From NCBI RefSeq assembly GCF_009900715.1, contig NZ_JAAAJC010000002.1, positions 124,001 to 188,000 on the forward strand: 64,000 nucleotides of DNA. Direction: 5' to 3'. Positions 46,206 to 59,598 of the stretch are shown in pieces. The notes beneath the pieces are model-generated. The model made no database searches. It had not been told where the DNA came from and was given only the letters and a program-made list of their open reading frames with translations. Within the stretch, counting starts at the first letter, position 1; the number at the start of each line of letters is the position of its first letter. The position numbers and the translations under genes were made by a program. This DNA is from Halococcus salsus. GTDB taxonomy: Archaea; Halobacteriota; Halobacteria; Halobacteriales; Halococcaceae.

Positions 46206-46277
46206 GGGCTCGTAGATCAGTGGCAGATCGCTTCCTTCGCAAGGAAGAGGCCCCGGGTTCAAATCCCGGCGAGTCCA
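46206..46277 (+). tRNA. tRNA-Ala (anticodon CGC), integration target
   Basis: 72 nt: acceptor GGGCTCG / CGAGTCC (one G-U), D stem GATC/GATC, anticodon stem CTTCC/GGAAG around loop TTCGCAA (anticodon CGC), variable AGGCC, T arm CCGGG-TTCAAAT-CCCGG, discriminator A. No CCA is encoded. The 3' 23 nt plus 3 flanking bases recur at 59573-59598 as attR, so the intact gene marks attL of the island. Confidence 0.96.
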
Positions 46278-46280
46278 TCC
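46255..46280 (+). other. attL core (26-bp direct repeat, tRNA-Ala 3' end)
   Basis: Starts with GGGTTCAAATCCCGG and runs 3 nt past the tRNA end (ATCC). Identical to 59573-59598. The preceding 14 nt of the tRNA (46243-46256) also recur near attR, at 59495-59508. The 209 bp between attL and the first island gene (46281-46489) show no gene. Confidence 0.9.
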
Positions 46281-46489
46281 TTCTAGAGCTTGAAACACAT
46301 GGCACAGACGGCATCCGGATAGGCTGCTATATCGTGTCCAACCCGTTCCGAGTTCAAGCGGAAAGGGCTGGGACTCATTCCAGATTGGGCTTCCCTGTGA
46401 GCTGACGCTTCTCTCTGTTCGTTCAAGACATAAAAGCGTGTGTGAGTCGTTGACTACACAGAGTGCTGGAACATCATAGGTTCAATACA

Positions 46490-47110
46490 CTAAGCAGCAT
46501 TCGTCGGCAATTCATCCTCATCACGTTCGTGGACATCATCGAAGGAGGCACTCGACTCATTGCCTGCCCATGCGATAGGAGTACCAAACGGTGTACAAAC
46601 ATCAATGACCTCCGCGATAGACTGAGACCGTCTCATCATCAACTTGACCGAGTCTGTCAATTCGACGTACCTTTCCACTGAGACACCGAGTGCATCAGCA
46701 CCCTGCTCGTTTTCCCATACTGGGTGCATTTCACCAAGCATGACAACGAAATCTGTCGGAGTGAGACCAGATGACCATTGGTAGTCCGCGATTTGGTCAA
46801 CCATCTCCAGTGTCCACTCATCAATAAAATCAGAAATCAATTGACAGGACTCTTCGTCAGTCAGTAGGTGGTCACTGACGTCGGTCTTAAATTCGAAGCT
46901 TGTTGGGTATCCATACCTTCCAGGTTCAGAGGTCGAAATATAGTAACTAATGTCTGGTTCGGATAAGCCAAAGCTCATCAACATGTCGTATTTCGATGTG
47001 GCATACAACATCCACTTGTTGACAACTCGTCTGAGAGCTATCTGCCGCCAAGTACTTGACAGTTCTCCGGGAGCGACCTGGTAGATGAGCGCTGCCATTC
47101 TATACTCCAT
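46490..47110 (-). CDS. Hypothetical protein of the island, 206 residues
   Basis: I recognise no family. The protein is acidic and mixed alpha/beta, rich in Tyr and Trp, and has no membrane segment. The start at 47110 was chosen because a TATATAA box at 47137-47131 lies 24 nt upstream, which makes a leaderless mRNA; an in-frame ATG at 47140 would overlap the TATA box. First gene after attL, leftward toward the tRNA. Confidence 0.6.
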   Translation of the reverse strand: MEYRMAALIYQVAPGELSSTWRQIALRRVVNKWMLYATSKYDMLMSFGLSEPDISYYISTSEPGRYGYPTSFEFKTDVSDHLLTDEESCQLISDFIDEWTLEMVDQIADYQWSSGLTPTDFVVMLGEMHPVWENEQGADALGVSVERYVELTDSVKLMMRRSQSIAEVIDVCTPFGTPIAWAGNESSASFDDVHERDEDELPTNAA

Positions 47111-47336
47111 GTCACATCTTCCTCGACCCGTTATATACATCTATTCATGTCAATTACCTTACTGTAGTGTAGGTCCGTGGAGTGTCTTTAACCAATTCTT
47201 ATCATTAGATTGAATAGTGTTGGATAAATGATTGTTTGTCTCCGAGATATCAAGGGGGGTGACATCACTACATCTCCGGTAGTCTCTCGGTAGAAATCGG
47301 CTACCGACGTGGTGAGCAGATGAGGGGCTGTACTCG

Positions 47337-47573
47337 CTATCTTTCCCAGACGGACTTTCTTTCGGATTTCTCCGATTTCCGCAACCGTCGCTCAAGTCGT
47401 TCATCTTCAATTCTCGCATCGTTGTTTCGTTCTGCAAGCAGCATTTCGGAGAGGGTACGTCCCTGGTTGTCGGTCTCGCCTGCGAGCTCGCCTGTGAATT
47501 CCGACGGATGAGGTACTCGCTCAACGACTGGCCCATCCTCAGTCTCTCGTACGGTGTATCGGTCGTTACACAT
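47337..47573 (-). CDS. Hypothetical acidic helical protein, 78 residues
   Basis: Starts MCNDRYTVRETEDGPVVERV and ends in a charged helix (RIEDERLERRLRKSEKSERK, about residues 54-73). No family is recognised. The separate longer frame overlapping it lacks haloarchaeal codon bias. The 226 bp between it and the previous gene (47111-47336) look non-coding. Confidence 0.5.
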   Translation of the reverse strand: MCNDRYTVRETEDGPVVERVPHPSEFTGELAGETDNQGRTLSEMLLAERNNDARIEDERLERRLRKSEKSERKSVWER

Positions 47574-47650
47574 GGTTCTTAGGAGGGTCTGTAAACTCTT
47601 GTAAGTATCGTGGATTTCTATGAGTTAGCCATGTAAGAATGGTGAGAAAT

Positions 47651-48373
47651 TCACAAATCGTCTTCTGTGAAAATCAGCTGTGTACTGTTTTCGTTGAGCC
47701 ATTCGGCACGAGCCTTGTACTCCGGGTCGTACTCGACGACGAGCGACCAGAAAGTCCCGTTGTGATTCGGCTCTCGGAGATGAGCGAGTTCGTGGACCAC
47801 GATGTAATCGATAATCTCGGATGGGGCCATCATCAGTCGCCAGTTGAGGCTCAGGGTTCCCGAAGTCGAACAACTCCCCCATCGCGTTCGTTGGTTGCGT
47901 AGTTCGATACTCTTGTACTCGACACACATTTCGTCAGCGTAGTGGTCGGCGCGCTCCTCGAACGTCTCCCGAGCCTTCCGTCGATACAACGTTTCCAACG
48001 CTCGTTGTACCGACGTCTGCTCAACGTGATGCCGCGCGAGTTTGAACGCCCCTTCTTCGACCGTCGACGCGGGCCGATGCTCGACAACGATTTCGTGCGG
48101 GTCGCCGAAGTACGGGAAGGTCGCGCCTGCCTCAAAGGTCCGGTCCGGTATCGTCTCTCGAAAAGAGTCGTACTTCTGTTTCTTCTCCATCACCCACGCG
48201 GCATTCTCGGCGAGTAGCTCCTCGGGGTCAGTCTCCGAATCTCGTGGCAGGACGACCACCACGTCGTGGATGTCGATGTCGATTCGTGGGTCGTCGGCCT
48301 CGTCGCTTCGGCGCACCTCGTAGGAGACTGTCTCACCGAACAGGTCGACCTCTCGCGGAGCCGCTTCAGGCAT
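47651..48373 (-). CDS. YgjP-like zinc metallopeptidase (DUF45/M48 family)
   Basis: 240 residues. A beta-rich N-terminal part is followed by NQRTRWGSCSTSGTLSLNWRL and the zinc motif HELAH at 194-198, with the third ligand His204 in EPNHNGTFW. COG1451 proteins of this type often accompany type I restriction-modification genes; the function is unproven. Its start overlaps the hsdR stop by 8 nt, so it is part of that operon. Confidence 0.88.
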   Translation of the reverse strand: MPEAAPREVDLFGETVSYEVRRSDEADDPRIDIDIHDVVVVLPRDSETDPEELLAENAAWVMEKKQKYDSFRETIPDRTFEAGATFPYFGDPHEIVVEHRPASTVEEGAFKLARHHVEQTSVQRALETLYRRKARETFEERADHYADEMCVEYKSIELRNQRTRWGSCSTSGTLSLNWRLMMAPSEIIDYIVVHELAHLREPNHNGTFWSLVVEYDPEYKARAEWLNENSTQLIFTEDDL

Positions 48374-51320
48374 AGTTCTCGATGAGATAGCTCCGGGTCG
48401 CGTCCACGAACTCGTCGTCGTTCATTAGCGCTGGCTTCTTGTGTTTCTTCACCAGCGTATCGAGAAGCAATTTTTCTATCTCCCTGACTGTGCTTTGGTT
48501 GGTCTGCCAACCGGGATAGCTTCGGTCGACGCGCTCTTCGAACTCTTCGCTGATGCCCTCGGCAATCTCCTCGGCCAATTCGTCGTTCTCGATGATGTCG
48601 GTCTCCTTGTCGGTCAAATGCGTGTAGATAGCGAACTCCGCATCCGACATCCCCCGTTCTCCGGCTTCCCTCTCGACTTCCAAGACCTCCCCTTCGACTG
48701 ATTTCAGCGCTTCGACCGCTTCGGGGTCGGCCATTCCACCGCTCTGCCAGCGTTCAACGATGTCGTTGACGCGCTCGCTCAATCGTTTGTAACGGGGGTT
48801 CTGGCCCGTCCGTGGATGCAGGTGTTCCCGAGTTGCGTGCGCGACCTGTGAGGCTTTCACACCGGGGTTATCCAGACCCTCTACTTCGTCGAGATACTCC
48901 TCGCCGAGCTTGTACATCGGGAAGTCGCGGCGTATCTCTTCGATGTCGACATTTTCGTCGAGGATGTCCCGCGTCTTCTGGGCCATGTCCTCCTCGGGAG
49001 CATCGTCGCCTGCGGTGGTCCGCTGGAAGGCTATCTGTATTTTACCCAGCCACTTGTATTGGTCCTGAATCCCTTGGTTGATGAGACGCTTGTCAGGTGC
49101 TACCGACTCGTAGAGGTCCTGAAGTCGTCGGAAGCCTTGCTTGAACTCACGGCGTTCCGGGTGGGTGCTGATTCGTTCGATGGCGTCGTTGGCTGCTTCC
49201 TGACTGTCGTTCTTCGGGATGTCGTCGAAGATGTCCATGACCGTTTCGACCTGACTCACGAGGTCCTCGAAGAGTTCTTTCTCGTCCTGAGCAGCGTAGG
49301 CCTTGGTCTCCGCGTCGTAGTCGAGCGCCTCGTCGATGTTCTCGAAGACCCCTTGGAAGTCGATGATTTCGCCGTTCTCCTTGCCATCGGCGGGACGGTT
49401 CGTCCGCGCGATGGCTTGCATCAGGTTGTGGTTCTTGAGGTTCCGGTCGAGGTACATCGTTTTCAGGACTGGAGCGTCGAATCCCGTCAAGAGCATATTG
49501 TGAACGACGAGGAGCTTCGGCGAATCTTCCTTCTTGAAATCCTGTACGATATCGTCTCTCTCCTCGGAATCCGTGTGGAACTGACGAATCAGCTCGGGGT
49601 CGTCCTTCGTCGCGGTATACAGCACCTCCACGTTCTTTTCGCCAAATCGCTCGATAAGTCGCTGGCCGTACATTGCCGTAGAGCGACGGCTGGGCGTCAC
49701 GACCATGCCCTTCCAGCCGTTCGGCGCGACGTGTTTGGTGTAGTGCCGTTCTATTTCCTCGACAGTCCTATCGACCCGTGGCGAGAGTTCTGCCAGCGTC
49801 TTCGCCGTGACCTGCTCGCGGATGAACTCGCGTTTCTCGTCGGTGGTCATCGTCCTGAACTCGTGTTCGAACTCCTCGTCGAGACCCGCCTCGTCGATGT
49901 CCCACTCCATCTCGTGGCGGAGCGTGAAGTACACAGGTAAAATCAGGCCGTCGTCGATGCCCTGCTTAACCGAGTAGCGGTGAAGGTACTCCTCACCTTC
50001 AGGCGAGAACTCTCGGAAGGTGTTGCGTTCGTTCTCGCGTTCACCCTCACGGACAGGCGTACCGGTGAAACCGAAATGAGAACACGTGGGAAGCGCGGCG
50101 TCAAGGCGACTCCCGAGGTCAGCCTCCATGAAGCGGTGGGCCTCGTCACTCATCACGATTACCTCGTCGTTGCCCTGAACATCCGGGTCGACATCGGCGA
50201 ACTTCTGGATGGTCGTGAGGACAAGCTGGCTCTGACCCTCCTCGATGAGTTGTTCGAGGTGAGAAATCCGCTCGGCAACGGTCCACTGTTCGAGCGAGAG
50301 GTTCGCCAGCTGGTCGCGCATTTGGCTGTTGAGCTTGTCTGTGTCGACGATGATGAAGACCTGGGGATTCGTCACAACGTCGCGTGAGAGAAGGTTCTGG
50401 GCCGCATAGAGCATCGTGAAGGACTTGCCAGACCCCTGGGTGTGCCAGATGAGGCCTCGGTTGTGCTCGCCCTCTCGCACTCTATCGAGAATAGCGTTGA
50501 CCGCGTAGTACTGCATATATCTCGGAACGATTTTGGCGTCGCCGCCGGTTCGGCGCTCGTAGAACACGAAGTTCTTCACGAGGTCGAGGACCGTCTCGGG
50601 GTTACAGAGCGCTTGCGTGGCCTGCTTCATCCCGTTGTCGTCCTCGTAGAGTGCCGGCGCATCGTTCCATGGTTGGTAGAAACCCTTGGGTGCGCCGACC
50701 GCGCCGTAGCGGAGTTCCATTGTGTCGGCGGCGATATTGAACAGACCGGGAACAAACAGCCGAGGAACGTCCTCTTGATAGTCGAGAAGGTCCCTCACGG
50801 CGTCTTTCCAGTGGTTGTCCTGTGCTCGGCTCTTGAGTTCCATCGTCACCAGCGGGATGCCGTTGACGAAGAGATTCACGTCTGGACGGATGGTGGTCTC
50901 ACGGGAGACCGAAAACTGATTGGCGGCATGAAAGCGGTTGTTCTCGGGGTTCTCGTAGTCTATCAGGTCGACGTAGATGGTCTTGCTCACGCCGTCAGCA
51001 CGCTTGACCGAGAAGGTCTTGCCCTTCGTGAGGAGTTGGTGGAACGCTTGGTTGCCGTCGAGGAGGTTTTCGTGGTCGAGGTCGCGTTTCAGCGAGGAGA
51101 TGAATTTCTCGACGTTTGCTTTGGTTACGTCATCGTTGAGCGCGACGACCTGTTCGGCGAGGAGGTCCCAGTAGATGACTTCGTTCGTTCGGCGTTCGTA
51201 TCGCTCGTCGAGGACTCGCGCACCCCGTCCGCCGTCCTGACCGTGTGTCTCCCACCCGATGCCGTCGAGCCACGAGAGTAGGGAGCGCTCGACGCCGCCC
51301 TCGTTCGGCGTGCTAATCAT
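48366..51320 (-). CDS. hsdR: Type I restriction enzyme, HsdR (restriction/translocase) subunit
   Basis: 984 residues from the ATG at 51320. A PD-(D/E)xK nuclease domain near the start (RPDVNLFV, then the ELK of MELKSR near residue 160) is followed by a superfamily 2 helicase: Walker A HTQGSGKSF near 292, DEAH near 391, GFTGTPV and the C-terminal helicase motifs (NMLLTGFDAPVLKTMYLDR, QAIARTNR). Cuts unmethylated DNA after ATP-driven translocation. All motifs look intact. Confidence 0.96.
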   Translation of the reverse strand: MISTPNEGGVERSLLSWLDGIGWETHGQDGGRGARVLDERYERRTNEVIYWDLLAEQVVALNDDVTKANVEKFISSLKRDLDHENLLDGNQAFHQLLTKGKTFSVKRADGVSKTIYVDLIDYENPENNRFHAANQFSVSRETTIRPDVNLFVNGIPLVTMELKSRAQDNHWKDAVRDLLDYQEDVPRLFVPGLFNIAADTMELRYGAVGAPKGFYQPWNDAPALYEDDNGMKQATQALCNPETVLDLVKNFVFYERRTGGDAKIVPRYMQYYAVNAILDRVREGEHNRGLIWHTQGSGKSFTMLYAAQNLLSRDVVTNPQVFIIVDTDKLNSQMRDQLANLSLEQWTVAERISHLEQLIEEGQSQLVLTTIQKFADVDPDVQGNDEVIVMSDEAHRFMEADLGSRLDAALPTCSHFGFTGTPVREGERENERNTFREFSPEGEEYLHRYSVKQGIDDGLILPVYFTLRHEMEWDIDEAGLDEEFEHEFRTMTTDEKREFIREQVTAKTLAELSPRVDRTVEEIERHYTKHVAPNGWKGMVVTPSRRSTAMYGQRLIERFGEKNVEVLYTATKDDPELIRQFHTDSEERDDIVQDFKKEDSPKLLVVHNMLLTGFDAPVLKTMYLDRNLKNHNLMQAIARTNRPADGKENGEIIDFQGVFENIDEALDYDAETKAYAAQDEKELFEDLVSQVETVMDIFDDIPKNDSQEAANDAIERISTHPERREFKQGFRRLQDLYESVAPDKRLINQGIQDQYKWLGKIQIAFQRTTAGDDAPEEDMAQKTRDILDENVDIEEIRRDFPMYKLGEEYLDEVEGLDNPGVKASQVAHATREHLHPRTGQNPRYKRLSERVNDIVERWQSGGMADPEAVEALKSVEGEVLEVEREAGERGMSDAEFAIYTHLTDKETDIIENDELAEEIAEGISEEFEERVDRSYPGWQTNQSTVREIEKLLLDTLVKKHKKPALMNDDEFVDATRSYLIENYA

Positions 51321-51415
51321 GGCTCTCGTTCGGATAGCACTCACATGGTTCTGTCGGTGAAACGGAGAAACAAAGCATTGGCTTCGTTCATCACGATGAG
51401 TGAACGTGATGGTCT

Positions 51416-51797
51416 GTGGATTTAGACGTTATTGACGACGTGGAGGCGGACGTCTCGATGGAGCGCGAACTCGAAGCCGAGGGGGTGGCGCTCGTGATGC
51501 CAGCGATGACCGTGTTGGAACTCTACATTGGCGTGGGAAAGGTTGCGAACACGCCCGCCGAGCGTCGGACCGTCGAGGCAGTGCTTAATTCGTAGTTAGT
51601 GGTGTCGATGACGCCATCCACCACTCGGCGTGCCGGACGACTCCTCGGCAAGCGGATGGACGACGGTGCGGACGGTCCCGGCATCAGGAGGATGATGCGG
51701 CAATCGCCGCGAAGCCATCGAACGCGACAAACCGGTTCTCGCTGGTGATTCGCACTTCGGGACGATTCCCAGCGTCACGCTTGAAACCTATCGGTGA
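51416..51797 (+). pseudogene. Decayed vapC-like PIN-domain toxin
   Basis: The first part (GTG 51416 to TAG 51595) encodes VALVMPAMTVLELYIGVGKV, typical of the VapC core. After the stop, pieces in shifted frames resemble the rest: a RRAGRLLGKRM-like helix, EDDAAIAA, and finally EAIERDKPVLAGDSHFGTIP with VTLETYR ending at TGA 51797. At least one stop and two frameshifts are needed. The N-terminal Asp motif is damaged, and no vapB is adjacent. It lies opposite in strand, exactly between hsdS and hsdR. Confidence 0.75.
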
Positions 51798-51798
51798 G

Positions 51799-53118
51799 TC
51801 AGCCGTGCGCCAGCACGTCGTCGAGAACCTCAATGTCCACGTCGTCGGTGCGGACCTCGCCTGAAAGGAGGTCCTGCATTAGGCCCTGTTTGAGGCGCTT
51901 GAGTTGAGAAATATACTCATGAGAGTCCATGAAAGTTTTCTGAACTTCTTCAAGACTCTCTGCGATTTCTTTCTGCTCTTCCTTTGGAGGTATCGCAATA
52001 ACGAGGTTGTCCAAATCGTCACTGCTCACTGAATCAAAGGTACTTCCGATAGCGATTGATTTCACGTACCGTTCACGCCTTCGGAGGTGGTGGTAGAGAT
52101 ATTCCGGTAGTATAGAGTCACCTGCTGAGATAGCGGCGAGTCCCCGTCCGATACAGCAGTTTCTGTCTGCCATGTTCACTTGTCCGACGTATGTCCCTCG
52201 AATGGTCATCAGTGTGCTACCTTCTTCGGCCGTCTTTACTGGATTTGAGCACCACCTATTATGGGAAGGACTGCGAAGACCAAACTCGTTGTTTGCTTGA
52301 AAGAATGGAAGACCGTCACCAGACTCGTTGTAGTATTCTGATTTCGGTGATGACCCCATTGTAATGGTGCATTCTTCACCCATCAGCCCACTTTCCCAGT
52401 AATCCGGTATGCTTCCTACGGTCGGGACCTCATCATAATCGCAATCAAGACGCTCTCCCGAAAACAGACTTTGCAGAAGTCCATCGTCAACACGTTTTGT
52501 CTGCTCGATTATCTCCTCAGTCTTCTGAATCGTTTGGTCGACGGCGTAGAGTATAGTGGCGATTTTGCGCTGCTCTTCGAGTGACGGAGTTGGTAGGTTC
52601 ACATCCCGAATATTCGACTGAGATAGATGTTTCACAGTCGTCCCCGCTATTGATTTTTGTATGTAGAACAGCGGTTTTTCAATCCCATATCGGAGGAATA
52701 TCTTGTTGTACTGCTTTGTGGGTTCTATCTTACATACTCGCTGGTTCAAGAGAGATTTCGGACCTGACCATAGGTGCGGCTCAAATTCTCCGTCCATTCC
52801 CACGAGCAGGTCGTCAGCTTCGATGAGATATTTTGAATCGTACTCGCCAGTGAAATTCAGGGTTGTTTTATCAGTTCCGAGGTCACGAATCCTAATCAGA
52901 GGAACACCTCCCTCATCGGCGAAGTCCTTAGATGAGAAGTTGTTACCAGTGAGTAAGTCTATATCAGAACCAATATTATTAACATTCCACTCGTCAGGAA
53001 CGTAGTCCAGAGTTGACCATGCGACTCCTTTAATCAGTCCATCATTTGGCTGGTTAGCGACATCGTTACTCGCCTCACTTTCATCTGTGAACTCGTCCAG
53101 TGATGCCTCCTCACTCAT
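51799..53118 (-). CDS. hsdS: Type I restriction-modification specificity subunit HsdS
   Basis: 439 residues with two target-recognition domains (about 25-165 and 215-375), each followed by a conserved helix pair. The first helix region is LPTPSLEEQRKIATILYAVD, the second is IPPKEEQKEIAESLEEVQ, each ending in LQSLFSGE or MQDLLSGE. The two half-domains set a bipartite DNA target. Start overlaps the hsdM stop by 8 nt. AT-rich relative to hsdM, as expected for exchanged recognition domains. Confidence 0.95.
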   Translation of the reverse strand: MSEEASLDEFTDESEASNDVANQPNDGLIKGVAWSTLDYVPDEWNVNNIGSDIDLLTGNNFSSKDFADEGGVPLIRIRDLGTDKTTLNFTGEYDSKYLIEADDLLVGMDGEFEPHLWSGPKSLLNQRVCKIEPTKQYNKIFLRYGIEKPLFYIQKSIAGTTVKHLSQSNIRDVNLPTPSLEEQRKIATILYAVDQTIQKTEEIIEQTKRVDDGLLQSLFSGERLDCDYDEVPTVGSIPDYWESGLMGEECTITMGSSPKSEYYNESGDGLPFFQANNEFGLRSPSHNRWCSNPVKTAEEGSTLMTIRGTYVGQVNMADRNCCIGRGLAAISAGDSILPEYLYHHLRRRERYVKSIAIGSTFDSVSSDDLDNLVIAIPPKEEQKEIAESLEEVQKTFMDSHEYISQLKRLKQGLMQDLLSGEVRTDDVDIEVLDDVLAHG

Positions 53119-54604
53119 AGTTCAGCGCCTCCATGTGCTGGGTCATCCGAGCCTCAATCTCGTCGCGCTCAGCCTGCAACTCCCGGAGCGTCGCTAACTC
53201 CTCGCGCACATCGATGTCCTCCTCGGGTTCAGTGGTGTCGACGTAGAGCGCGATGTTGAGGTTGTAATCGTTCTCGCGTATCTCCGAGAGTGACACCGTT
53301 CGGCTGACGCGCTCCTCGGTGGTCCACTCCCGGACGCTTTGCACGATGTGCTCGACACCCTCATCCGTGAGTTCGTTCTGATTCGATAGGTCGTCGTAAA
53401 ACGCTTTGTCGGCGGCGTGGACGAACTGGACTTCACCCTCCCGGTCGGCGGGCTTATCGGTGTTCAACACCAGAATCGCCGACGGAATCGAGTTGTTCTG
53501 GAAGAGGTTCTCGGGCAACCCCACGATGGCCTCCACAAGGTCGTTTTCGAGCATCGGCTCGCGATACTTGCTTTCGTGCTTTCTGAACAAGACCCCATGC
53601 GGGATGACAATGGCGGCCTTTCCACCCACGCCGTCGTGGTTAGGCGTCTTGAGCTGCTTCGCCATGTGCATGATGAAGGCGTAGTCACCACGGTCGGCTC
53701 GTGGGAGCTTCTCAGCCCAGTCGAACCGGCCATACGGGTCGTCCTGAAGGTCGTCCTTCGCCCAGTTCGCCGAGAACGGGAAATTGGCGAGAACTCGGTC
53801 GAAGCGCTGCAACGCCTCCCCGTTGGTGAACTGCGGCGCAGAAAGCGAGTCCTCACGCTCGATGTCCCCGCTAAGTGCGTGGATGGAGAGGTTCATCCGA
53901 GCGATGGCCGCGATGTCGGGGTTGATTTCCTGCCCCGTGAACGTGAGCTTCGAGGGGTCGCCACCTTGCTCTCGATAGTACCGTGCGGCCTCGATGAGCA
54001 TCCCACCGGAGCCAGCCGTCGGGTCGTGGAAGCTTTGCCCGTCCTCGAAGTCATCGACAAGCTGGACGCACAGCTCGACGATGTGCGGCGGTGTGAAGAA
54101 CTGACCTCCAGATTTGCCTTCCTCCTCGGCAAAGTGACGAACCAGGTCCATGTATGCCTCGCCGAGCAAGTCCGGCGGCACGTTGTCGCGGTCAAGGTCG
54201 TACTTGCTGAGGTGCTCGACGAGCTTCCCGAGGCGGTCGTCGTTGAGCGCGTCGGCGTCGATGTAGTCGGCACGGAACAGGCCTTGTAGCTCAGGGTTCT
54301 CTTCGGTCAGCGCGTCGAACGCTTCGTTGAGCGCTTGGTCGACGTTGTCGTTGACTGCCCGGAGGTCTTCCCAGAGATACCCTTCTGGAATGACCGGCGT
54401 ATCGAATAGGTTCGGGCGTCGGGCGAAGTCCTCTCCGTACTCATCGAGGTTCTCCTGATACTGCTTTTCGAATTCGTCGGAGATTGTCTTGTAGTAGACC
54501 AGCGGGAGAATGTAGTCCTTGTAGTCCGTCGAGTCCACTGCGTCTCGGATAATGTCCGCGCACTCGAACAGGTGCGAGTCGAGTTCGGTAAGCGTAAGCG
54601 GCAT
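53111..54604 (-). CDS. hsdM: Type I restriction-modification DNA methyltransferase HsdM
   Basis: 497 residues from the ATG at 54604. An N-terminal helical HsdM_N domain precedes a Rossmann-fold N6-adenine methyltransferase: motif I DPTAGSGGM near 191, motif IV NFPF near 271 in place of NPPF (a variant also seen in other HsdM). The C-terminal coiled helix (about 455-490) docks HsdS. Protects host DNA and sets the epigenetic mark. Confidence 0.95.
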   Translation of the reverse strand: MPLTLTELDSHLFECADIIRDAVDSTDYKDYILPLVYYKTISDEFEKQYQENLDEYGEDFARRPNLFDTPVIPEGYLWEDLRAVNDNVDQALNEAFDALTEENPELQGLFRADYIDADALNDDRLGKLVEHLSKYDLDRDNVPPDLLGEAYMDLVRHFAEEEGKSGGQFFTPPHIVELCVQLVDDFEDGQSFHDPTAGSGGMLIEAARYYREQGGDPSKLTFTGQEINPDIAAIARMNLSIHALSGDIEREDSLSAPQFTNGEALQRFDRVLANFPFSANWAKDDLQDDPYGRFDWAEKLPRADRGDYAFIMHMAKQLKTPNHDGVGGKAAIVIPHGVLFRKHESKYREPMLENDLVEAIVGLPENLFQNNSIPSAILVLNTDKPADREGEVQFVHAADKAFYDDLSNQNELTDEGVEHIVQSVREWTTEERVSRTVSLSEIRENDYNLNIALYVDTTEPEEDIDVREELATLRELQAERDEIEARMTQHMEALNYE

Positions 54605-54668
54605 ACTACAACGCATCAGCCTATCGGGCCTTAGCTTTCATGGATTACAGGCTATTGATGAGACTCGG

Positions 54669-54748
54669 CAGTAGTACAACCGTTGCATAGCTTCGTCGAG
54701 AGGGGTCTCAGCGGCCCGTGACGAAGGTCTGCTGTAGTCGTACTACTG
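54669..54748. repeat. Nested inverted-repeat element between hsdM and the short integrase
   Basis: Outer arms CAGTAGTAC (54669-54677) and GTACTACTG (54740-54748), perfect 9 bp. Middle arms CTTCGTC (54691-54697) and GACGAAG (54720-54726), perfect 7 bp. Inner hairpin GAGA-GGGG-TCTC (54698-54709) directly joined to the middle arm. The whole can fold as one 80-nt structure. Either a leader RNA of the hsd operon or a recombination site. Confidence 0.7.
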
Positions 54749-54793
54749 TGGAGAACCCCACGAAGGGAGGCATCTGTCAGCCGTGAGAGCATC

Positions 54794-55435
54794 TCAAGAG
54801 AGTCCATTGAGCTCCTCACCTATCGTTGACGATGTTGGTTCGGTGAGGTACGGCTCAATAGCATCGTAGCTACTCCATCCGCCGATACTCATCATGACTC
54901 GGGCGGAGACCTCCTCCTCAACGAGATAATGGTTCGCCCAGGCTCTCCTCAAATCGTGCGAGGAGACATGTTCCCAGTACTCCGGATGGTTGTCATCGTG
55001 CTCGCGGGAGCTGCTCTCTTTACCCTCAGACGGCGCGAGATTGCTTGCTGCTTCGCGTACCCAGCGTCGGATGCTATCCACGGAAACATCAACGTACGGC
55101 TCACTCAACGCAATGTCGCGCTCCTTAGCGTAGTTGTTGAGTTCGCGTTGCACGTCTTTGGGGACGTACGCCTGTCGTGTGGTTTTCTCCCCACCTTTGG
55201 TGTTCTTGCCGCGGACTCGCAACTCCCAATAGTCGCCATCGTCGTTGTAGGAGAGGCCTGCAGGCGTCGCTGATAGTACACCGCTCACACGTAACCCGAC
55301 CCTACCCATGAGGAGTACAGCAACACGTCGCGACCAGTCACTCTCGCGAGCTTCATCTGCGAGTGCGTTGATGTCGTCGGGGTAGTTGAGCCACACCTTC
55401 GTTTGCGAACTTGAGTCATCGATGCTCCGCGGCAT
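54794..55435 (-). CDS. Catalytic-domain-only tyrosine recombinase
   Basis: 213 residues containing only the C-terminal catalytic domain. Arg49 in GRVGLRVSGVL, His160 and Arg163 in SSHDLRRAWANHY, Trp187 in GGW, and the candidate nucleophile Tyr196 in EPYL. The N-terminal core-binding domain of normal integrases is absent, which is a known halovirus/plasmid form. Lies 190 bp upstream of hsdM, same strand. Confidence 0.83.
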   Translation of the reverse strand: MPRSIDDSSSQTKVWLNYPDDINALADEARESDWSRRVAVLLMGRVGLRVSGVLSATPAGLSYNDDGDYWELRVRGKNTKGGEKTTRQAYVPKDVQRELNNYAKERDIALSEPYVDVSVDSIRRWVREAASNLAPSEGKESSSREHDDNHPEYWEHVSSHDLRRAWANHYLVEEEVSARVMMSIGGWSSYDAIEPYLTEPTSSTIGEELNGLS

Positions 55436-55892
55436 ACACGCTTTGTTTATAATCTGTGTGTATAGCGCCTTCGGTCATCAGTCGACGACTCACCTCACTC
55501 CGGAAATCGTTGTCTTAGGGTCTGTGAGAGGGTTGGCTTCTCGCGGTGTGCACGCTTTGTGGTACAACCCGTGCACGGATGGATTGGGGGAGTATATTCT
55601 GCTGAGTCCAGTGAGAACAGAGAAATATATCATTGTTTTGGTTTTTTGAGAGAGGTTGGTTGACTGCTGCGAACACACCCTAACTGACAGCGAAAATCTG
55701 CTCAGAAATAGCCAGGGATATGGGTCTTTAACTATTCTTAATACCCCAGTTTTCCTATCAGCCGTGAATTTATAGGAGACCACTGGAGAACCAACTTGAG
55801 TGTGTCAACTCCATTATTCTGAAGCGGCGGGTCATGGCGCTCACCCAATTTCATATTGAACTTTTGATATCCTGAAGCCGAGGCCATGGCGT

Positions 55893-55910
55893 TGTGTACT
55901 CAGATACACA
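55893..55910. promoter_or_regulatory. Palindromic site, single copy
   Basis: TGTGTA-CTCAGA-TACACA, followed by GCAGTAAGG. Same consensus as the three sites at 57957-58036, and the flank TACACAGCAGTA is shared with the middle one of those. Probably bound by the same protein. Confidence 0.65.
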
Positions 55911-56046
55911 GCAGTAAGGTAGGAGTCGGTCATTGAATCACGCAATTGAGCCACGTCTCACTCATGTTATTCTCAAAGATTCGAACGTCAGAAAGTTTTA
56001 TAATTCTCGGACTCGGAAGGACTATGACAACGTAGCAGATGACCCA

Positions 56047-56087
56047 TGCTCCGCTAATGGAGTGAAGAGACGGGCGCTGGCACGCCC
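56047..56087 (+). ncRNA. Two tandem stem-loops downstream of a TATA box (possible small RNA or mRNA leader)
   Basis: Stem one TGCTCC/GGAGTG (56047-56052 with 56059-56064, loop GCTAAT). Stem two GGGCG/CGCCC (56072-56076 with 56083-56087, loop CTGGCA). A TTTATAAT at 55997-56004 predicts a transcript starting near 56028. The RNA would therefore open with both stems before the tiny leader ORF at 56100. Confidence 0.4.
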
Positions 56088-56099
56088 AAACAACCGACT

Positions 56100-56186
56100 A
56101 TGATTACACAAATAACACATCAACGAAGAAGTATAATTCTTGCGCATACTCTGAAGGGGGTGGTTCGTACCCGTGTTCAACCATGA
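56100..56186 (+). CDS. Possible 28-residue leader peptide overlapping the Rep-like start
   Basis: ATG 56100 to TGA 56184-56186. The basic peptide begins MITQITHQRRSIILAH. Its stop overlaps the ATG of the next gene in an ATGA arrangement, which would couple their translation. Coding status rests only on this overlap and on the preceding stem-loops. Confidence 0.35.
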   Translation: MITQITHQRRSIILAHTLKGVVRTRVQP

Positions 56187-57235
56187 GTGCGACACCAGCG
56201 CGGAGCATCCCGGTTCCTACTGAAGAGAAACCACTCTCTATAGAGAACGCTCTTCCTTCCGACATAAGGACTATACACGGCGCTCGGAACAACTACGACC
56301 TCAAGCGAATCCAAGAATTCGACGAACTCAGCGACGAGACACGCAACCTGCCAGACAAGGACCCGCTGCTTCGTGTCCGAGTTCCACGTGACCTTCCAGA
56401 AGAACCAGCGCTCAACATCGCACGTGCTGTCACGTATGGCTCCACTCGGAGTCTCTACAGACGCTGGATGATTGCTGGGTTGCTCAAGCTCGGTCACTTC
56501 GCGAGAGCACGTCGACTTGCATCGTGTGGGAACAAAACAAAGGACAGTGGTCGCTACTACTGCGGTCTCCATCGGCTTTGCCCTCGCTGTACTGCAGGAA
56601 GCAGTGCTCAGAACAACTACAGCGATTCAGTGATGCAGTGGAATCAGTGGACCTGGACAGCACTCCATGACCGACGCGCCCATCCTCATCCAGCTATCGC
56701 TCGGAGGTCCATCCTCGAAACCTTCGAGAAGCTCAAGCGACGTCGTTTCTCGGTCAATGAGGGATGGCTTCGGAAGATGCGCCGGTACGACCCGGACCTC
56801 TACCGTGAACTTCGAAGTGAGTACGTGAGCAAGGGTCTCGCTGTACCATTCCAGAAGCTCACTAAGTCAGGTATCGCAGGAGTCCACGTAATGCAAGTCA
56901 GAGGAGGATTCGTCGCACACATGGATGTTCTCTGTGCTGCGCCCTGGATAGAATCGGGTCCTCTGGAACACAAGTTGCGGCAGTGCGGGGGAGGTAACGT
57001 GTTGATACCCATGCGACTCCGAACAGAAGACGGTTCGGGGGATGTTGTCGAACCTGTTACAAGCGGAGACCTTGACGGAGGTATCCTCGATGGAGACCGA
57101 CGTGACCGCGCCGAAGCTGTCGACAAGGCCGTAGCATACATCAGCGACACGACAGACATCGAAGACCCGCAGGCTCGCGTGGAATACGACGCTGTAGTGA
57201 GCGGAGCACACTCTATTCATCCATGGGGGCTATGA
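56183..57235 (+). CDS. Rep-like zinc-finger protein (candidate plasmid replication initiator, degenerate HUH)
   Basis: 350 residues. A zinc-finger-like Cys set (C115, C127, C133, C136; YYCGLHRLCPRC) resembles those of rolling-circle Rep proteins. Later GGFVAHMDVLC (H246) sits where an HUH motif would be, but only one His is present. AVAYISDTTD (Y319) resembles the tyrosine motif but lacks the Lys. It may be a diverged or inactive Rep. Preceded by stem-loops and a leader ORF. No close family is recognised otherwise. Confidence 0.5.
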   Translation: MSATPARSIPVPTEEKPLSIENALPSDIRTIHGARNNYDLKRIQEFDELSDETRNLPDKDPLLRVRVPRDLPEEPALNIARAVTYGSTRSLYRRWMIAGLLKLGHFARARRLASCGNKTKDSGRYYCGLHRLCPRCTAGSSAQNNYSDSVMQWNQWTWTALHDRRAHPHPAIARRSILETFEKLKRRRFSVNEGWLRKMRRYDPDLYRELRSEYVSKGLAVPFQKLTKSGIAGVHVMQVRGGFVAHMDVLCAAPWIESGPLEHKLRQCGGGNVLIPMRLRTEDGSGDVVEPVTSGDLDGGILDGDRRDRAEAVDKAVAYISDTTDIEDPQARVEYDAVVSGAHSIHPWGL

Positions 57236-57323
57236 TTGTGCTGAGCCTCGTGTACAGTACTGAGCATGAGGAGTGCTTTTCGATGTGTCTGTCTCGCAGA
57301 TACGGAACTCAATCGACGAGAGA

Positions 57324-57857
57324 ATGAAGTTCAACGAGAAAGAGACGGAGCAGGTCTTAGGAACCCGTCTCCGAGTCAAGTTCGATGAAGATGATTGGTC
57401 GTTCGTTAGCGAACTTGCGGAGGAACGAGCCCAGTCCTATCTTAATCAAGAACGTAGTTGTAGAGATACTTCGACAGTCGATGCTCACCGTACCGGAGTA
57501 GCGGGCGAACTCGCGGTAGCGCGAACCTACGGTCTCTCCCTTGATACCAACGTCTACGAAGATGGTGATGGAGGGTTTGACCTCGTGAATTCGCATGAGA
57601 GTGACGACAAAGAGCCAGAATATATCGACGTCAAAACTCGCACAAGAATGGATGCTCGGCTGATTGTCGCCGAAAAGACCCTTCAGCGAGAGAACTCCGA
57701 TGTGTTTCTACTCGTGACTGTTTCGAAGACCTTTGCCGACCTTGTTGGTTGTGCAAGTCTCGAAGACCTCCGGCACGGGAAGCTGGTTCGGAGGGACTCG
57801 CAGAAGTACCGTGCACTCAGCCAAGATGAACTCCGAGAACTACCAGGTGTTAGGTGA
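57324..57857 (+). CDS. PD-(D/E)xK nuclease-fold protein
   Basis: 177 residues from the ATG at 57324; a GTG at 57273 would add 17. The arrangement GVAGELAVARTYG (Glu62), DGGFDLV (Asp86) and EYIDVKTRT (Asp102, Lys104), followed by LIVAEK, is the restriction-endonuclease-like fold common in haloviruses. Nuclease or DNA-processing role is inferred. It is 88 bp after the Rep-like gene, same strand. Confidence 0.62.
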   Translation: MKFNEKETEQVLGTRLRVKFDEDDWSFVSELAEERAQSYLNQERSCRDTSTVDAHRTGVAGELAVARTYGLSLDTNVYEDGDGGFDLVNSHESDDKEPEYIDVKTRTRMDARLIVAEKTLQRENSDVFLLVTVSKTFADLVGCASLEDLRHGKLVRRDSQKYRALSQDELRELPGVR

Positions 57858-57956
57858 TAATGAAACCCCGCAGACTACCACTCATCAATACACCAGAAAT
57901 ATAGACATCTGAGAGCGCGCTATGTGACTGTTATCTTTCATTTGAGTACCCCAACC

Positions 57957-58036
57957 TGTGTATCAGAATACACAGCTGTGTAACTCACTACACAGCAGTA
58001 TGGCAACATTAGTACTCCTGTGTAATTGTATACACA
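57957..58036. promoter_or_regulatory. Array of three phased palindromic operators
   Basis: TGTGTA-TCAGAA-TACACA (57957-57974), TGTGTA-ACTCAC-TACACA (57977-57994) and TGTGTA-ATTGTA-TACACA (58019-58036). Start-to-start distances are 20 and 42 bp, about two and four helical turns, so all sites face the same side of DNA. The last ends 37 bp before the ATG at 58074, next to a TATA-like ATTTATCC (58042-58049). Expected to bind a dimeric repressor cooperatively. Confidence 0.8.
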
Positions 58037-58073
58037 GAGACATTTATCCGGGAGGGGTTCAAATGGGAAAGTG

Positions 58074-58325
58074 ATGGAACGACTCCATACGGTCGACATA
58101 GAGGGATGGCAGGAGTACTTCGGAAAACTTGGTACATCCATATGGGCACAAGGTCCCAGCAGGAAGTCCAGACTTGCCTGGCTCTACTTTCAGGAGCCAA
58201 TTGACGATGTTGAGATACTCGACGAACTACGGGATGTCGGGCTCGAAATCATGCAAATACACCGTGGGATGGGTGACACGGTCCGCGTTGACGTAATGTG
58301 CCCACCAGTGCTGCCAGGGGCCTGA
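58074..58325 (+). CDS. 83-residue hypothetical protein under the operator array
   Basis: ATG 58074, with a purine-rich GGGAGGGG 13-20 nt upstream. The protein starts MERLHTVDIEGWQEYFGKLG and has ILDELRDVGLEIMQIH in a helical middle. No family is recognised. It is likely small, soluble and slightly acidic. The elaborate operator implies tight control; it may be a copy-control, excision or repressor protein (inference). Confidence 0.68.
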   Translation: MERLHTVDIEGWQEYFGKLGTSIWAQGPSRKSRLAWLYFQEPIDDVEILDELRDVGLEIMQIHRGMGDTVRVDVMCPPVLPGA

Positions 58326-58440
58326 GAACCAGCGCCGTTCACAGTTACTCACTCATACAAGGAAGCTACTCAATGTAGTATGAGTTGCAATGGGCCTCAT
58401 AAAGTAATTTTAGGCGGTTGGGCGAGAGGAAGTTTACGCC

Positions 58441-59451
58441 TTACACGCTATCGAGATACTTCGCTCGGTTCAGACGCCGCTGCTCTTTGTCCCTTGCGTC
58501 GTAGTGCATATCCAAAATAGGTTCCGAGACGTTCATTCGCTCGGAGACAATGGCCTTCGGGACGTCAGAGTCTAAGTGGTGAGTGATTGCGCTCCTTCTG
58601 ATTGGGTGGCTGCTTACTGAACCAGGACACTTCGACATGTGGTCGCGCTTAGTAGCTTGGCAATCGTCGATATCGCGGTCGTGCGGGCATTCGTTGGCGA
58701 AGTAGCACGGTCTAACAACTCGGTAGCATACTTTCGAGATAGTCTCGTAGTGCAGTCGACCTTGAGTACTCGCGAGTAGTGGGTGTCGACCAGAGTCATC
58801 GACAACGTCTGGTCGTTGCTCCTCAAGCCAGTCATCGAGAGCTCTGGCGAGTCGATTATTGGTAACGGAGACGTTCCGCTCTCCATCCTCTTTCAGCTTT
58901 AGCGAAGTGCCCTGCTCTGGACGATGGCGCACAGCGAGATAGCCATTATCCTGATGCCAATCCTGTACGTCCAATGAGTAGAGAGAGGACCTCCGCATTC
59001 CAGTGTGATAGAGCAGGCTGAAGACGAGGTGGTTCTTCGAAGCCCACTCGTATCGAGCCAGGTAGTCCATTATCTGAGTGGCCCGGTCATGTGAGATGTG
59101 CACATCCCGCGCTTTCTCGGATTCGGGGACGGTCGGTACGATGATTTTGTCGGAGACCTCCTCATCAATCACGCCCACGTTCTCACACCACCGAACGAAT
59201 ACACGGAGTGTCTGCATATGGTATTGGAGCGTGACTAAGTTCAGGTCGAAGTTCGTCATTCTCCAGTTCTTGAACTGCTCGCAGTGGAGTCCGGAGAGTG
59301 CCGACAGGTCGTCCAACTCGGACTCCTCGTCGAACCACTGAAGGAAGTAATTCAACCTATAGCGGTGGTTGGTAACCGTACTCGCTGTTGCGTCATGCCT
59401 GGATTCGAGATACTGTTCGAGTGCTTCTTCTGGTGTGAGCGTTGTTGTCAT
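58441..59451 (-). CDS. Full-length tyrosine integrase of the island
   Basis: 336 residues from the ATG at 59451 (the frame runs on into attR but is not coding there). The N-terminal core-binding domain (1-95; LTPEEALEQYLESRHDATAS) is followed by the catalytic domain: Arg in HTGMRRSSLYSL near 150, HPIRRSAITHHL near 280, and the Tyr of MHYDARDKEQRR near 315. A zinc-like Cys set (CYFANECPHDRDIDDC) lies between. Adjacent to attR, as expected for the integrase that inserted the island. Confidence 0.93.
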   Translation of the reverse strand: MTTTLTPEEALEQYLESRHDATASTVTNHRYRLNYFLQWFDEESELDDLSALSGLHCEQFKNWRMTNFDLNLVTLQYHMQTLRVFVRWCENVGVIDEEVSDKIIVPTVPESEKARDVHISHDRATQIMDYLARYEWASKNHLVFSLLYHTGMRRSSLYSLDVQDWHQDNGYLAVRHRPEQGTSLKLKEDGERNVSVTNNRLARALDDWLEEQRPDVVDDSGRHPLLASTQGRLHYETISKVCYRVVRPCYFANECPHDRDIDDCQATKRDHMSKCPGSVSSHPIRRSAITHHLDSDVPKAIVSERMNVSEPILDMHYDARDKEQRRLNRAKYLDSV

Positions 59452-59494
59452 GTCTGTCTGCTCTCCACCAACCCACAGGGAAACTCCGTAGTCT

Positions 59495-59598
59495 GGAAGA
59501 GGCCCCGGATGGCCGTTTCGTGCGAGCCGCAGCGAGCACGGAATGGCCACAATCGGACGCGTTAGCGTCTGAGGGTTCAAATCCCGGCGAGTCCATCC
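59495..59598 (+). other. attR with split tRNA-Ala remnant and two hairpins
   Basis: GGAAGAGGCCCCGG (59495-59508) equals tRNA-Ala 46243-46256. The 26-bp core at 59573-59598 equals 46255-46280. Contiguous in the tRNA, the two are separated here by 64 nt containing a 14-bp hairpin (59510-59523 with 59536-59549, two G-U pairs) and a 7-bp hairpin (59554-59560 with 59565-59571, loop GTTA). Confidence 0.85.

Follow-up and report, generated by a model that had tools for sequence, protein, structure and literature searches.

The window, a stretch of 64,000 nucleotides from Halococcus salsus (host genome 3.52 Mb, 30 contigs), contains a mobile element integrated at a tRNA-Ala(CGC) gene, in which a rep-like gene lies between a block of restriction-modification genes and an integrase gene. 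The tRNA gene, the element, and the genes that it carries are as follows:

46206-46277, plus strand: tRNA-Ala(CGC), the insertion target (ARAGORN)
46278-59595, no strand assigned: integrated mobile element of 13,318 bp, with its ends set against the relative G002
48366-54616, minus strand: Type I restriction-modification genes carried as cargo (R, 48366-51344; S, 51799-53118; M, 53111-54616; Pfam HSDR_N, Methylase_S, and N6_Mtase)
54794-55435, minus strand: second tyrosine recombinase, 213 aa (Pfam, 8.3e-8 over residues 19-197, catalytic domain only)
56183-57235, plus strand: Rep-like protein of 350 aa, assigned by homology to the Natrinema limicola Rep
57273-57857, plus strand: ORF of 194 codons (phrog_18407, 5.5e-4; NOV_C and DUF5843 weak, below the cut-off)
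58074-58325, plus strand: orphan ORF of 83 codons
58441-59634, minus strand: tyrosine recombinase (integrase), uninterrupted (Pfam Phage_integrase, 9e-11; phrog_1 integrase, 8.5e-29)
59573-59598, plus strand: attachment site copy, a duplicate of the tRNA 3' end (exact 26-nt match, GGGTTCAAATCCCGGCGAGTCCATCC)

An integrase, two copies of the attachment site, and a relative with the site empty, the features that define a tRNA-targeted integrative element, were all found. The attachment copy is identical over its 26 nt to the last 23 nt of tRNA-Ala(CGC) plus the next 3 bases. In G002, the sequence to the left of the element, up to and including the tRNA end (94.9% identity over 1205 bp), is joined directly to that on its right (79.8% over 1057 bp), and this straight junction of the tRNA with the downstream sequence is the empty site, the evidence coming from this genome as the sole one of 10 in the genus that gave the tRNA in the stretch compared. 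The region 46278-59595 is foreign to the chromosome, because its GC content is 0.54, against 0.67 and 0.69 in the chromosome on either side. The attachment copy itself looks split, with GGAAGAGGCCCCGG of the tRNA occurring again at 59495, followed by 64 bp and then by the tRNA 3' end at 59573; by eye, the 64-bp stretch within 59495-59572 contains an imperfect inverted repeat, and the copied tRNA end may have received a small insert at 59495-59572. The integrase start may lie nearer to 59451 than to 59634.

In its general plan, the element resembles other haloarchaeal islands at tRNA genes, which likewise combine a tyrosine recombinase, a duplicated tRNA 3' end, and restriction-modification cargo, but the 11 regions examined around 11 integrase matches outside this element yielded no relative of the rep-like gene. 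A YgjP-like peptidase is also encoded in the element. The 213-aa recombinase lacks the N-terminal domain and adjoins hsdM/hsdS; possibly it is vestigial, or it may work for the restriction system. The product of the 194-codon ORF displays, by eye, a GFDL...DVK pattern reminiscent of PD-(D/E)XK nucleases, and this ORF was found in its own genome only among the 18 genomes of the family (1/18) and in none of the plasmids or viral contigs searched. The 83-codon ORF is an open frame with a coding-like GC content by codon position and an acidic composition, for which no credible relative was obtained among 332 genomes: three gave matches at E 0.01, its own included, and the two foreign ones were taken as chance, being antisense to longer frames.

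The rep-like gene at 56183 is, by sequence comparison, truly Rep-related and tied to the Rep_1 family (PF01446; the pC194/pUB110 group) through a Natrinema intermediate, so that the name Rep-like given in the initial annotation is correct by homology, even though parts of the HUH active site are missing. The protein matched neither Pfam nor NCBIfam models and had no PHROG match that was convincing; PF01446 gave no match to it at E 1 and none in its own genome at E 10. The link is instead provided by the nearest relative found, a Rep encoded in Natrinema limicola, of the same order, on the 3,108-bp contig NZ_AOIT01000005.1 (L002/L036/L068). The two proteins share 29 of 146 aligned residues (E 2e-8 in a single comparison), and their alignment score of 111 was reached by 0 of 1000 shuffles (34 +/- 5). 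The Natrinema Rep, in turn, aligned with the Rep of a small Acinetobacter plasmid with a score of 113 (shuffles 32 +/- 5, with 0/1000 reaching it), and the latter protein matches PF01446 at 2.3e-22. Direct comparison of the Rep-like protein with the Acinetobacter Rep was weak, its score being reached by 8/1000 shuffles. The motifs of the Rep-like protein map as follows:

56561-56590, plus strand: CGLHRLCPRC, similar to the CG-x-H-x-LCP-x-C stretch of Rep_1 proteins
56645-56671, plus strand: interval containing the motif I-like WTWT
56909-56935, plus strand: interval containing the altered HUH motif, AHMDVL
57128-57154, plus strand: interval containing the altered YxxK motif, YISD

In the account of HUH motifs in PMC5714925, the two histidines of motif II bind a metal ion and the tyrosine belongs to motif III, and variants of the motifs are known. 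Compared with Rep_1, the Rep-like protein has HMD in place of HUH and YISD in place of YxxK, a shorter C terminus, and ~26 extra residues before the tyrosine. In the alignment with the Natrinema Rep, which, unlike the Rep-like protein, keeps HVHLH and YVCK, YHVHLHALC is opposed by FVAHMDVLC, without the pair of histidines, and YVCK by YISD, with Tyr319 kept and an aspartate in the place of the lysine; the protein stops directly after PWG, where its relatives continue. Nicking catalysis by the Rep-like protein thus seems doubtful in view of the changes from HVHLH to VAHMD and from YVCK to YISD, yet still conceivable, given that motif variants are known and that an aspartate is able to bind metal. 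Two AlphaFold2 models of the protein had pLDDT values of 37.6 and 40.2, too low for use, and the matches in a PDB search were taken as chance.

The plasmid, phage, viral, genome-contig, family, and class searches turned up no close relative of the rep-like gene. Plasmids, phages, viral contigs, and genome contigs yielded nothing; among the 18 genomes of the family, the only match was its own; and in the class, 10 of 391 genomes gave matches at E 0.01, its own included, of which only Natrinema limicola (G110) aligned with the Rep motifs. No Rep was seen among the ORFs of the class matches L005 and L008, and L003, L004, L006, L007, L009, L010, and L011 were judged by alignments alone. A three-row profile recovered two of the 391 class genomes, the host and Natrinema limicola, and the Natrinema Rep used as query recovered the same two, together with three Acinetobacter plasmids; with this query, phages and viral contigs yielded no matches, and genome contigs only its own contig. 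The Natrinema protein, with its catalytic motifs kept, is related to Rep_1 yet missed by Pfam. No ORF on its contig was recognized by eye as an integrase, and NZ_AOIT01000005.1 is possibly a small rolling-circle plasmid. Elsewhere in the host genome (G000:C9:22930-23052), we found a degraded Rep fragment with 49% identity to the Natrinema kind of Rep and two stops, which reads as a sign of an older, lost plasmid.

The region immediately upstream of the rep-like gene, 55819-56186, constitutes the promoter-proximal portion of the element's replication-type module. The initial annotation had described it as a compact, origin-like control region of a plasmid; the replication-type module is indeed there, but the element that carries it is integrated at a tRNA gene. 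Besides the palindrome at 55893, for which see below, the following features are distinguishable here:

55997-56004, plus strand: TATA-like box TTTATAAT, defined by sequence only
56100-56186, plus strand: 28-codon ORF with its ATG at 56100
56132-56139, plus strand: second TATA-like box TATAATTC, inside the 28-codon ORF

All the elements listed in that annotation exist, including TTTATAAT exactly where it had been placed, although several of them are no more pronounced than in shuffled sequence. The direct repeats CTGAAGCGGCGGGTCATGGCG (55819-55839) and CTGAAGCCGAGGCCATGGCG (55872-55891) constitute the best self-match in 55784-56182, with a score of 14 that was reached by 5 of 60 dinucleotide shuffles and is therefore not beyond chance. 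The two stem-loops (56048-56052/56059-56063 and 56072-56076/56083-56087) together amount to -16.3 kcal/mol, a value that 30 of 200 shuffles attained, and folding of the leader as a whole did not surpass that of shuffled sequence either (z +0.79). The TGA of the 28-codon ORF (56184-56186) does overlap the ATG at 56183, but when the 360 nt upstream were shuffled with the ATGA at the start of the rep-like gene taken as given, 188 of 2000 shuffles had an ATG leader of 28 codons or more. The putative leader peptide contains five K/R and no D/E residues, which is odd for a halophile, and the ORF is probably not a gene. Because the letters of TATAATTC are found at 55999 and again at 56132, within this ORF, the transcript may begin after most of the leader ORF, and the second TATA-like box could be the real promoter of the rep-like gene. 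The label origin-like fared poorly: the DNA fold of 55819-56186 is no better than that of shuffles (z +1.14), nor do the surroundings of the palindrome alone stand out (z +0.12).

The palindrome is a different matter. The copy noted initially is one of four, all with identical arms:

55893-55910, no strand assigned: palindrome copy 1, TGTGTA-N6-TACACA, TGTGTACTCAGATACACA
57957-57974, no strand assigned: palindrome copy 2
57977-57994, no strand assigned: palindrome copy 3
58019-58036, no strand assigned: palindrome copy 4, its end 5 bases ahead of the TATA-like ATTTAT at 58042

This set of four is beyond chance and confined to the element. The four perfect copies of TGTGTA-N6-TACACA lie within 2.1 kb; no further exact copy occurs in the rest of the 3.5-Mb genome, and allowing one mismatch adds a single site. 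Across the class, exact matches were found in 21 of 391 genomes, four in the host and one in each of the 20 others, and the reversed control pattern occurred once in each of 13 genomes (counted by hand from the table). In 200 shuffles of 54700-59595, same-arm perfect palindromes numbered one in 184, two in 15, three in 1, and four in none. Viral contigs held 74 stretches with one TGTGTA-N6-TACACA site each, taken as chance by our own estimate. Copies 2-4 precede the 83-codon ORF, with starts 20 and 42 bp apart, and copies 1 and 3 are both flanked, on the following side, by GCAGTA-x-GG.

Our favored explanation, to which we give an even chance, is that the palindromes are operators through which a protein encoded by the element controls the rep-like gene and the 83-codon ORF. 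This putative protein, a dimeric DNA-binding one, would bind CTGTGTA-N6-TACACAG, occupying three copies at the promoter of the 83-codon ORF, with starts ~2 and ~4 helical turns apart, and a single copy upstream of the rep-like gene; both promoters would be set together, which might silence the module for as long as the element stays in the chromosome. Such an arrangement is consistent with the presence of four same-arm palindromes in the element, when each of the other 390 class genomes has at most one, with the position of copy 4 right beside the TATA-like box that precedes the 83-codon ORF, and with the flank common to copies 1 and 3. Against it, the element proteins scanned match no known family of DNA-binding regulators, and the ~86 bp that separate copy 1 from the TATA-like box downstream of it, at 55997, are a long distance for an operator that works by simple blocking. 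Nor was conservation of the motif seen in relatives, as no relative of the module was found. A text search of the literature returned papers that, by title, had no bearing on the TGTGTA motif.

The same palindromes might instead be sites at which an initiator binds or DNA is extruded, with a rolling-circle origin of the excised circle at 57940-58060 and the copy at 55893 serving Rep autoregulation, an alternative that we consider possible though unlikely. Single-stranded DNA of 57940-58060 folds far better than shuffles (z -2.93 on the plus and -4.29 on the minus strand), although this score is itself a consequence of the palindromes, and among the segments measured, 57858-58073 has the lowest GC content (0.43). 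An origin, should there be one, is better sought at 57940-58060 than at 55819-56186, the respective fold z scores being -2.9/-4.3 and +1.1. The layout is similar to that of the SNJ2 provirus as portrayed in PMC13107129, another haloarchaeal element in integrated form, which carries integrase and replication genes followed by structured DNA and whose origin consists of an inverted repeat and a hairpin downstream of rep. The likeness is one of layout, however, in that the SNJ2 Rep belongs to another family, Rep-Arvir, set apart by its description there as distinct from HUH. The absence of one HUH histidine and of the YxxK lysine from the Rep-like protein also weighs against an origin, as does the Natrinema contig, which encodes an HUH Rep and contains no TGTGTA palindromes (0 matches at up to three mismatches).

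Alternatively, the element could be a decayed integrated plasmid in which the rep-like gene is being lost and the region has no present function. The missing active-site residues and the C terminus cut just past PWG would fit such decay, which does occur in this genome, as the degraded two-stop Rep fragment attests. We nevertheless regard it as plausible but unlikely: the 350 codons are still open, the integrase and restriction-modification genes are uninterrupted, and long survival of four perfect palindromes under drift would be unexpected. Decidedly unlikely, in our judgment, is the possibility that the Rep-like protein gave up nicking (HUH to HMD, YxxK to YxxD) and is now a site-specific regulator that binds the four palindromes and silences the module. 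Finally, the initial proposal that Rep synthesis is limited by stems in the leader and by translational coupling to the 28-codon ORF is very improbable: its parts do occur in the order given, but the stems, repeats, and leader are all at chance level, the peptide lacks acidic residues, a second TATA-like box lies within the leader ORF, and Rfam gave no match.

Were the altered Rep to bind the palindromes, it would be a prokaryotic HUH domain retained for DNA binding after loss of the active site, as reported in PMC6668415 for the origin-binding domains of polyomaviruses and papillomaviruses, in which the HUH domain is kept for DNA binding and the active site is lost. Otherwise an ordinary orphan island, the element would, if the palindromes are operators, offer a small switch, open to testing, in an integrated element of haloarchaea.
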